This document shows positions 47,948 to 50,695 of a stretch of DNA of 64,000 nucleotides, piece after piece (positions within the stretch are counted from its first letter, which is position 1; each line of letters begins with the position of its first letter). Source of the DNA: Bdellovibrio bacteriovorus (GTDB lineage Bacteria > Bdellovibrionota > Bdellovibrionia > Bdellovibrionales > Bdellovibrionaceae); contig NZ_CP102930.1 of NCBI RefSeq assembly GCF_025558485.1, forward strand, positions 124,001 to 188,000, written 5' to 3'. A program made the position numbers and the translations under genes. The notes under the pieces were generated by a model, which was not told the DNA's origin, searched no databases, and saw only the letters and a list, made by a program, of their open reading frames with translations.

Positions 47948-48283
47948 ATGAAAGCTTTCTTCGCCCTGCTGGCGGCACTTTCCACTTCCACTTCAGCCTT
48001 GGCTTCTGAAACCGTGACTTGCGAAGGTCCATTGAAATCCGGCACACATGCTGCCTTTGAAATGACTGGTAGCACAGCCACTTTGGCTTTCGATTATCGC
48101 GAATTTGTGATCGACATGGATTGCAGAGAATACGCAGCCGATCTTCCGGTTCTGGTTTGTGTTGAAAACATCCCGGGTGACCACAAATATGTGGTGCAAT
48201 TGGCAAACGGTCAGGCTCATGTGACTTTGGAAGCCAGCAACCCCAACGCGACTGTTTATAAGGGCGCTTTGAACTGCAAATAG
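47948..48283 (+). CDS. small exported protein
   Basis: A 111-residue protein with a signal peptide (FFALLAALSTSTSALAS) and four cysteines in the mature part (VTCEG, DMDCRE, VLVCVE, ALNCK) likely forming two disulfides. A GGGG site lies before the ATG. No family is recognised. It is the first of several small exported genes in 47.9-50.6 kb. Confidence 0.7.
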   Translation: MKAFFALLAALSTSTSALASETVTCEGPLKSGTHAAFEMTGSTATLAFDYREFVIDMDCREYAADLPVLVCVENIPGDHKYVVQLANGQAHVTLEASNPNATVYKGALNCK

Positions 48284-48414: not shown

Positions 48415-48918
48415 ATGAAGTTCTTGTTGATGCTATTGTTGACTGCTTTTTCCCTGAATTCCCTGGCCTCTTCCCATGCGGAAGATTTGTTCATTAAAAA
48501 AGTCTATGCAGTGACCGAGGCAAACAACGGGCGCAGCGAAGATGTGGACCCGGAAACTCTGACCTCCAGGCAAATCGACGGTCTGATGAAGGCTGCAAAT
48601 GCAGAAGCCGACATCTGGTATGACACGATTCTCGAAGGCGACTATATGCTGAATTCCGAGGCTGAAGTCGAAGTGGCGGCTTTAAGCAAATACTATTCGG
48701 CCTCTGGTGAATTTGTGGCTTATCGTGCAATCATCCAGCATGCAGCCTATGACGTGGGCAGCTGTGATATCGACTGGGAAGAAGATCAGGACAAAATGGA
48801 TCAGTTTCTGAAAGGAAACTGCACACCCGGTTATATTTCCAGCGGAATCTTCATCAGCCCGGACTTCAAATTCCACTTCCGCGACGAAAATGCCATTGAG
48901 GATTTTTCCGAAGAATAG
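48415..48918 (+). CDS. exported protein of unknown function
   Basis: A 167-residue protein with a signal peptide (FLLMLLLTAFSLNSLAS). The mature part is acidic and mixed in structure, with two cysteines (GSCDIDWE and GNCTPGYI). A GGAG site precedes the ATG. It is convergent with the small exported gene at 48955. No family is recognised. Confidence 0.65.
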   Translation: MKFLLMLLLTAFSLNSLASSHAEDLFIKKVYAVTEANNGRSEDVDPETLTSRQIDGLMKAANAEADIWYDTILEGDYMLNSEAEVEVAALSKYYSASGEFVAYRAIIQHAAYDVGSCDIDWEEDQDKMDQFLKGNCTPGYISSGIFISPDFKFHFRDENAIEDFSEE

Positions 48919-48954: not shown

Positions 48955-49311
48955 TTACGGCAATGCCGGATAGGCACAAATCAACGAATCCGCTTGTCCC
49001 ACCGACAAAACATCATTCGGCATCTTTGCCACAATGTGGGTCACTTGAGAAAACTCCATTTCAAAAATCTGCCCTTCATAACGTGCGGCGCCCTCCACCA
49101 AAAGCCCCTTGTCCTGTGCCTTCACTTGTCCGGCTACCAGAACCACCAAATCAATATCCCCGGTCAACTCATCGGCAATGCCCATCACGCTCAGCGCTGA
49201 ATCCACAGTCGGCAGACTTTCACAGTGAAAAACCACCGCTCCATCCCCGTTCCCTGCCATTGCCTGCGCCCCTGCCATAACCAATACTGCTGATACGATC
49301 CATGCTTTCAT
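48955..49311 (-). CDS. small exported protein, paralogue of the product at 50308
   Basis: A 118-residue protein with a signal peptide (WIVSAVLVMAGAQAMAG). The mature part has GNGDGAVVFHCES near the start, a Val/Leu-rich strand (IDLVVLVAGQVKAQD), then KGLLVEGAARYEGQIFEMEFSQVTH and a late cysteine (SLICAY). The same pattern appears in the product of 50308-50649. It is divergent from the TIGR02147 regulator, and the shared upstream region holds three palindromes. Confidence 0.7.
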   Translation of the reverse strand: MKAWIVSAVLVMAGAQAMAGNGDGAVVFHCESLPTVDSALSVMGIADELTGDIDLVVLVAGQVKAQDKGLLVEGAARYEGQIFEMEFSQVTHIVAKMPNDVLSVGQADSLICAYPALP

Positions 49312-49390
49312 ATGCTCTCCTTGTAAGAGGTTTATGTGTTTGTCTTGAGTGGGGTTGTAATTGAAGTCTCTCTAACTTAGCCAGCATTAT

Positions 49391-49452
49391 TGACACAAAG
49401 CGTGTCAGTTTATGACACATGAAAAACCTGCCTCCGTGTCAGTTTTTGACAC
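49391..49452. promoter_or_regulatory. three TGACA palindromes (probable operator cluster)
   Basis: Three 17-bp inverted repeats with a 5-base spacer lie in the divergent promoter region: TGACAC-AAAGC-GTGTCA (49391-49407), GTGTCA-GTTTA-TGACAC (49402-49418), GTGTCA-GTTTT-TGACAC (49436-49452). The first two share one half-site. They lie 56 bp or more before the regulator's ATG (49508) and about 80-140 bp before the start of the divergent gene. The regulator downstream is the natural candidate ligand; this is inference. Confidence 0.7.
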
Positions 49453-49507
49453 AAATTGCGGCAAAAAAACTGGATCTTAAATTCCACTGGTGTTAAACCC
49501 CTGCCCT

Positions 49508-50311
49508 ATGGAGCTTCACCGTTTGAAAAGTAAAAGAATCCAGGCCCGCAGCTTTAAACAACTTCTGCAGGAAGAACTCGTTGCGCGTTGTCGCTCCAAT
49601 CCAAACTACTCTCTTCGTTCCTTCGCTCGATCCCTGCAGGTAGAGCCTTCCGCATTATCACAAATGATCAACGGCAAACGTCCTATTACAGAGAAAATGA
49701 AAATGCGTCTGGGCTCTGCCTTGGGGCTGACAACGGATCAACTTCGCCGTCTGCCAGCTTCTGCCGAAGCCATGCAGGGGCACAATGAAATCAGAATCCA
49801 GTTTCAGCAGCTGACGATGGATTCTTTCGCCGTTATATCCGACTGGTATCACTATGCGATTTTGGAGCTAACTTATCTGGAGGACTTCAAATCTGATGCC
49901 ATCTGGATCGCTCAGCGTTTGGGCATCACCAAGTCCGAGGTTAATATTGCAGTCAACCGTCTGCTGCGTCTGGGACTTTTAAAGAAAAATGAAAAGGGTA
50001 AATGGATTGATGCCTCTGAAAATGGGGAACTGACTCACCTTAGCCCCTCAGAAACATCCGATGCGGCACGAAAGTATCAGATCCAACTGCTGGAACTTTC
50101 CCAAAATGCCGTGCGTGAGATTGCTGTGAAAAAACGCAATCATACTTCAGCCACGCTCTGTTTTGATCCTGAGGATCTTGAGCTGGCTATTGAACGTATT
50201 GCCGACTTCAGAAGATCTTTTGCCCGGGACTTCCAGCCCAAGAAAGCCAAAGATGTCTATCAACTGCAAATCAGCTTCTTCCCGCTGACAAAACAAAAGG
50301 ACAATGTATGA
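49508..50311 (+). CDS. TIGR02147 family transcriptional regulator
   Basis: A 267-residue DNA-binding protein. The N-terminal helix-turn-helix (FKQLLQEELVARCRSNPNYSLRSFARSLQVEPSALSQMINGKRPIT, key parts YSLRSFA and SALSQMINGKR) is followed by the DUF4423-type middle (DSFAVISDWYHYAILELTYLEDFKSDAIWIAQRLGITKSEV) and a C-terminal domain (CFDPEDLELAIERIADFRRSF). This matches the full TIGR02147 arrangement. The ATG at 49508 is preferred over a GTG at 49490. Its TGA overlaps the ATG of the next gene, so both are translated together. Confidence 0.85.
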   Translation: MELHRLKSKRIQARSFKQLLQEELVARCRSNPNYSLRSFARSLQVEPSALSQMINGKRPITEKMKMRLGSALGLTTDQLRRLPASAEAMQGHNEIRIQFQQLTMDSFAVISDWYHYAILELTYLEDFKSDAIWIAQRLGITKSEVNIAVNRLLRLGLLKKNEKGKWIDASENGELTHLSPSETSDAARKYQIQLLELSQNAVREIAVKKRNHTSATLCFDPEDLELAIERIADFRRSFARDFQPKKAKDVYQLQISFFPLTKQKDNV

Positions 50312-50649
50312 AAACCCATATCTGTGTCTGCGCTCTGCTTTTAACAAGCCTTTCTGCCCCGGCTCGCATACGTCAAGGTGTTAAGGAAGGTGGTGGAGAC
50401 TCCGCAGCTGTGTTTGTGTGCGAGTCTCAGAACCAAAAAATTCCTATTCGAATTTATGGATTTTCTTCAATGACCGATGGTTTGGAACTACAAGTCTATT
50501 TGAACGGAAAGCTGACCGCCCGGGATGCCGGGCAGCTTCAGGAAAATGCATTTTCAGGGACTCAATATAGGATCACTTTCGCAAAGATCAGCACTTTATC
50601 TTCGGTACATAACACACAGACTTTTCCACTCACTTGTATCTTTAATTAA
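50308..50649 (+). CDS. small exported protein, paralogue of the product at 48955
   Basis: A 113-residue protein with a short signal peptide (ICVCALLLTSLSAPA). The mature part has GGGDSAAVFVCES, then LELQVYLNGKLTARDAGQLQENAFSGTQYRITFAKIST and a late cysteine (LTCIFN). This lines up with the protein at 48955-49311 over its whole length. It starts inside the regulator's stop codon (ATGA overlap). Confidence 0.72.
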   Translation: MKTHICVCALLLTSLSAPARIRQGVKEGGGDSAAVFVCESQNQKIPIRIYGFSSMTDGLELQVYLNGKLTARDAGQLQENAFSGTQYRITFAKISTLSSVHNTQTFPLTCIFN

Positions 50650-50651
50650 AG

Positions 50652-50695
50652 CTTCTTCGGGGACCGCCAGCATCGGGGCCGGTCCCCGTCTGAAG
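50652..50695 (+). terminator. strong hairpin after the TIGR02147 cassette
   Basis: A perfect 9-bp stem CGGGGACCG/CGGTCCCCG within a wider CTTC/GAAG stem, 13-base loop. There is no T tract, so it may act as a weak terminator or protect the end of the message. Confidence 0.55.

Follow-up and report, generated by a model that had tools for sequence, protein, structure and literature searches.

A regulatory gene that stands between two genes for small exported proteins in Bdellovibrio bacteriovorus raises the question of whether the three genes form a unit governed by their own regulator, and of what the exported proteins have to do with it. The window is the whole stretch of DNA that was analyzed, 64,000 nucleotides long, and all coordinates are positions in it; the three genes of the 1.7 kb cassette are named R, P1, and P2. 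Reading and translation of the open reading frames give the layout of the preliminary description, in which R is flanked by the divergent P1 and by P2, whose start overlaps the stop of R in an ATGA at 50308. The features of the cassette are the following.

48955-49311, minus strand: P1, a likely exported protein of 118 aa with conserved cysteines C30 and C112; the untagged paralog, with its own putative operator
49381-49384, minus strand: conserved CTGG, +34 relative to the array start on the P1 side
49391-49418, minus strand: putative P1-facing operator array, with half-sites (plus strand) TGACAC at 49391, GTGTCA at 49402, and TGACAC at 49413, in 11 bp steps
49436-49463, plus strand: putative R-facing operator array, with half-sites GTGTCA at 49436, TGACAC at 49447, and a degenerate GCGGCA at 49458, in 11 bp steps
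49470-49473, plus strand: conserved CTGG, +34 relative to the array start on the R side
49508-50311, plus strand: R, a regulator with an N-terminal XRE/HigA-like helix-turn-helix (HTH) and a C-terminal DUF4423 domain (TIGR02147, PF14394)
50308-50649, plus strand: P2, a likely exported protein of 113 aa, translationally coupled to R, with a KEGGGD tag at its mature N-terminus

To the left of the cassette, the genes at 47948-48283 and 48415-48918 encode two further small exported proteins of unknown family; diverged relatives (31-42%) of the second product are present in most genomes of the genus.

R exceeds the curated cut-offs of both models that define its family, with 103.4 bits against TIGR02147 (cut-off 50) and 132.7 bits against PF14394, or DUF4423 (cut-off 30). 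Its C-terminal DUF4423 domain spans 165 residues and contains a winged-helix segment, and the HTH at its N-terminus is similar to HigA structures (E 2e-6). There are about 14 TIGR02147/DUF4423 members in the genome of the window and about 6 to 31 copies per genome in the ten genomes examined. The library entries assign it no function, and the open-licence PMC papers searched contain no description of the operator, of the coupled exported partner, or of the tag. In the same literature search of open-licence PMC papers, no paper on TIGR02147 and no described function for DUF4423 regulators were found; one member, Bd3700, is mentioned in passing as upregulated during growth in prey (PMC12546842). 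The window holds a second, shortened DUF4423-type gene (L024; 38043-38501, minus strand), whose frame matches only positions 1-78 and 208-270 of TIGR02147, the middle with the wHTH region being gone; it is not followed by an exported partner and is probably a decayed member.

P1 and P2 had been described as related, a claim that a lack of any significant profile-profile match would have overturned; it stands, since hhalign of the two ortholog profiles gives a probability of 99.3 and E 6.8e-21, and BLASTP of the pair alone gives E 1e-8 over 99 residues. The P2 of the window is without the clear C-terminal block of P1, and the P2 of one relative, G020, retains a full P1-like C-terminus that bridges the two. 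By inspection, both proteins open with a signal-peptide-like segment; they are likely exported and would reach the periplasm or the outside. The name of secreted effectors, under which they were first described, is not supported: the proteins are small and probably all-beta as far as modeling indicates, each with a conserved pair of cysteines, and they match no Pfam or NCBIfam family and no fold. The AF2 model of P1, built from an alignment of P1 and P2 alone, is all-beta at pLDDT 47 and was set aside. Against PDB sequences, the A2 profile gave a chance-level match only (E 0.22), and the weak sigma-54 matches of the A3 profile (E 0.14 and worse) were ignored. In L029 and L030, the P1 leader (~2640-2710 in R-forward orientation) has a conserved inverted repeat, ATGAAGGG...CCCTTCAT, immediately ahead of the start codon, which may form a hairpin that would control P1 translation.

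The three genes are inherited together. A comparison of 24 genomes of the genus finds orthologs of R (61-84% identity) in six besides that of the window, giving seven carriers and 17 non-carriers, and the P1/P2 family is restricted to the same seven of 148 genomes that have R. P1 is divergent from R-P2 in the genome of the window, G002, and G023; the order is P1-R-P2 in a row in G020 and R-P2-P1 in G001, G018, and G007. P2 follows R at a spacing of -4 in six of the seven loci and at +4 in one. The two left neighbors at 47948-48283 and 48415-48918 are also present in G002 and G023 and not in the other four carriers. An empty site is preserved in G006, which lacks exactly the P2-R-P1 unit, a segment of ~1.68 kb whose two ends lie behind the stops of P2 and P1; its alignment with G002 is collinear for ~4 kb on each side, and G023 has the same junctions against G006. 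The cassette is gained or lost as a block. The unit has no terminal repeats beyond chance 6-7-mers, and thus no transposon signature. Carriage of R by phages or plasmids was rejected, as no relative was found in phages and a Bdellovibrio plasmid gave one partial match at 29%.

The arrangement of R and P2 recurs well beyond this genus. For 97 DUF4423 genes from the genome of the window and its relatives, the codirectional gene that follows nearly always encodes a protein that is exported by a crude signal-peptide rule, mostly at ATGA spacing. A Gly-rich GxGG tag behind the signal peptide is found in 58 of 77 downstream partners against 11 of 196 exported genes at other places in these loci (Fisher p 3e-31), where the counts are neighborhood samples around DUF4423 loci and this first set also served to define the tag pattern. 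Another 80 loci, taken from named Bdellovibrionota MAGs and sharing a few genomes with the first set, give 43/59 against 9/176 (p 7e-25). With the two sets combined, a codirectional ORF lies within 60 bp of 156 of the 178 regulators, and among 150 non-redundant partners the commonest spacing is -4 (72 partners) and a slightly wider tag pattern occurs in 120. The cassette has both features of the class, an exported gene within ~60 bp behind the DUF4423 gene (P2, by way of the ATGA) and a GxGG tag that follows the signal peptide in this coupled partner (KEGGGD). Judged by these sequence features, the trio is one case of Bdellovibrionota-wide operons of a DUF4423 regulator and a tagged exported partner that have their own palindromes. 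No published account of the arrangement was found in the open-licence PMC papers, and the coupling is apparently new to the literature.

Other DUF4423 groups have palindromes of similar geometry, namely GTTTCA-N5-TGAAAC, a doubled CGGGAC-N5-GTCCCG, and GGTAATTACC. Upstream of 37 of 93 DUF4423 genes, against 12 of 158 controls, there are inverted repeats whose 6-bp arms are separated by 5 bp (p 1e-9, a value to be taken as indicative because orthologs are not independent), and the nested gaps of 3 and 7 are raised along with the 5-bp gap. A three-gene form with the GTTTCA-N5-TGAAAC palindrome recurs in L015, L122, L093, L095, L120, and L106 and consists of a DUF4423 regulator, an untagged small lipoprotein, and a tagged GNGGD protein. 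A DUF4423 and tagged-partner operon also appears in a record titled Lysobacteraceae (L155, JAGTJX010000003.1), likely a mis-binned contig or a transfer.

Many partners in these sister operons share a domain with the elements GxGGD, Cys, LDxYE, D, C..Q.A, and HExxY, in which G30, D114, H165, E166, Y169, S180, and R184 are invariant (L200 numbering) and which has no Pfam or NCBIfam assignment. Of its 58 members in ten genomes, 49 are found no more than 1.5 kb behind a DUF4423 gene, against an expectation of ~0.3% per member. AF2 models the domain well (pLDDT 84); Foldseek returned nothing significant (none at E below 0.5), and the top rows of VIA were mainly zincins at low Z, the best being 4.6 over 100 residues. 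The model makes a zincin-like fold possible, with weak alignment to AsaP1, selecase, SprT, and IrrE and with the HExxY segment as points of likeness, but most of the sister proteins lack the second His and have HExxY instead of HExxH. A partner subgroup with HEFGHH, a complete zincin-type HExxH, is encoded downstream of L117, L119, L130, L131, and L138, and its regulators have CGGGAC-N5-GTCCCG operators, in two copies in most members. P1 and P2 themselves are without the domain; they are too short for it and have no HE motif, and the match of P2 to the profile of the zincin-like partner family (A4) covers 34 N-terminal residues only (prob 40) and does not place P2 in it.

The tag is more durable than the proteins that bear it. 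KEGGGD is invariant in the P2 of all seven loci while every codon varies synonymously. In G002 and G023 an unrelated-looking protein of 85 aa takes the place of the P2 body, and what still matches the profile of the other P2s is the signal peptide and the tag only (37 residues). P1 is without the tag in six of the seven, that of the window having only GNGD. Because P2 keeps the tag and P1 mostly lacks it, the tag follows the slot behind R and not the regulon or export as such. It may quite possibly be a signal for sorting, anchoring, or processing after export, with R merely a local regulator, as it sits at the mature N-terminus right behind the predicted signal peptidase site and is common to different bodies. 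A general signal of that kind, however, predicts many tagged exported proteins without a DUF4423 neighbor, whereas elsewhere only ~5% are tagged, and the zincin-like tagged proteins stand in their large majority right behind a DUF4423 gene.

The control of the cassette is best read from the region between P1 and R. Exact GTGTCA-N5-TGACAC lies at 49402-49418 and 49436-49452, and exact TGACAC-N5-GTGTCA at 49391-49407. The three palindromes first described are all present, but they are truly parts of two mirrored arrays, one on each gene side, of three half-sites alternating at 11-bp steps of about one helical turn. The exact operators, in both forms, occur at this locus only in the 3.34-Mb genome. 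Two mismatches are enough to take away the rarity of the pattern in the window (expected 2.0), and only exact and orthology-based counts are used here because the mismatched search runs at chance level. TGACAC-N5-GTGTCA is at the locus in 7/7 carriers, and its sole occurrences among the 17 non-carriers are strays in G004 and in G012 (Fisher p 1e-4); for the mirror form the counts are 5/7 carriers and 0/17 non-carriers (p 5e-4); because the genomes are related, these sites and genes are not independent observations. Arrays stand upstream of both R-P2 and P1 in all seven genomes, so that the palindromes are conserved through three gene orders, some half-sites being degenerate or missing (the R-facing array of G001 is degenerate, and that of G020 has just two clear half-sites). 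Each of the 14 arrays keeps the same orientation toward its gene, and most are trailed by CTGG or TGG at about +34. A promoter search of the operator region found no sigma-70-like promoter.

The locus is very probably a self-contained autoregulated cassette that R controls via the two arrays, and a member of the Bdellovibrionota-wide class. Autoregulation is strongly indicated because the sites are exclusive to the locus, they co-occur with R, P1 and P2 are present in the same seven genomes, the arrays are kept, and an empty site exists. The earlier reading of an autoregulated cassette with two secreted effectors is thus strongly supported by comparative genomics in its first part, and a role as effectors is not supported. 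In the scheme that we infer, R would be a dimeric XRE-type DUF4423 regulator that binds the two GTGTCA-N5-TGACAC-N5-GTGTCA arrays on one helix face, one array governing the R-P2 operon and the other P1, each from upstream. All three genes would most likely be repressed by R until a signal lifts the repression, upon which both related exported proteins would appear together. Against this scheme, some arrays are imperfect, as in the R-facing ones of G020 and G001, the arrays may instead bind one of the ~13 other DUF4423 paralogs, and R may be an activator.

Repression by occlusion is not readable from the region because no sigma-70-like promoter is visible there, and the absence of such a promoter overlapping the arrays also suits an activator that recruits RNA polymerase to them. 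An odd number of half-sites in a fixed orientation is what would be required if an activator had to sit at a constant place with respect to the polymerase; the arrays are indeed directional, always with G-T-G toward the gene, and the conserved CTGG follows them at about +34. The fixed orientation, however, fits occlusion of a promoter of unknown type equally well, and the P1- and R-facing arrays lie back to back, so that R would activate itself. Activation is possible on these grounds but rather unlikely.

Within the autoregulated cassette, the exported partner could also feed back on its regulator, an idea suggested by the tie of the tag to the slot behind R. The P2 precursor would be a ligand of R: unexported P2 would hold R through KEGGGD, and its export would change the activity of R, so that coupled translation would make R and P2 together and transcription would follow P2 export. 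The concentration of the tag in the gene directly behind DUF4423 speaks for this, several of the 11 tagged genes elsewhere being second genes of the same operons, as do the constancy of KEGGGD through codon change and body replacement, the prevalence of ATGA coupling, and the lack of the tag in most copies of P1, which is exported and of the same inferred regulon but not directly behind R. On the other side, 30 of the 150 coupled partners have no tag, and the tag may be a mere structural or sorting element because it lies just after the signal peptide and the bodies are often zincin-like. Such feedback is unlikely. It is also quite improbable that the Bdellovibrionota use many parallel, insulated one-component circuits in which each DUF4423 regulator would read the export state of its partner via the portable tag and use its own operator code in the 11-bp geometry.

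The cassette also resembles other known systems. HigA/XRE-type autorepressors have an HTH related to that of R, and their palindrome-based autoregulation would operate alike; the cassette differs in the extra DUF4423 domain, the arrays of three half-sites, and an exported partner instead of a toxin. RRNPP quorum sensing also pairs a regulator with a secreted peptide, and in the cassette an HTH regulator likewise adjoins a small exported product; P1 and P2, however, are proteins of folded size with two cysteines and not short peptides, and no TPR domain was identified in R, in contrast to RRNPP systems. A reading of R and P2 as toxin and antitoxin of the HigA kind, which the nearness of the HTH to HigA structures might suggest, is highly implausible and was rejected: R scores 36.8 bits against TIGR02607 (HigA) under a curated cut-off of 47.7 and has the DUF4423 domain besides, and P1 and P2 both start with a signal-peptide-like segment where a cytoplasmic HigB toxin would adjoin.

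In predatory Bdellovibrio, DUF4423 proteins belong to the more often repeated regulators, and the most notable point beyond the autoregulated trio first described is their phylum-wide coupling to tagged exported proteins. Many of the exported partners have a possible metallopeptidase-like domain, and the partners as a whole are candidates for a function in the periplasm or directed at prey; a portable tag that outlasts the replacement of the protein body calls for an explanation of its own. The operators of these circuits can be read from the sequence, and DUF4423 proteins acting as local autoregulators with recognizable operators and tagged partners would make a layer of predator gene control directly testable.
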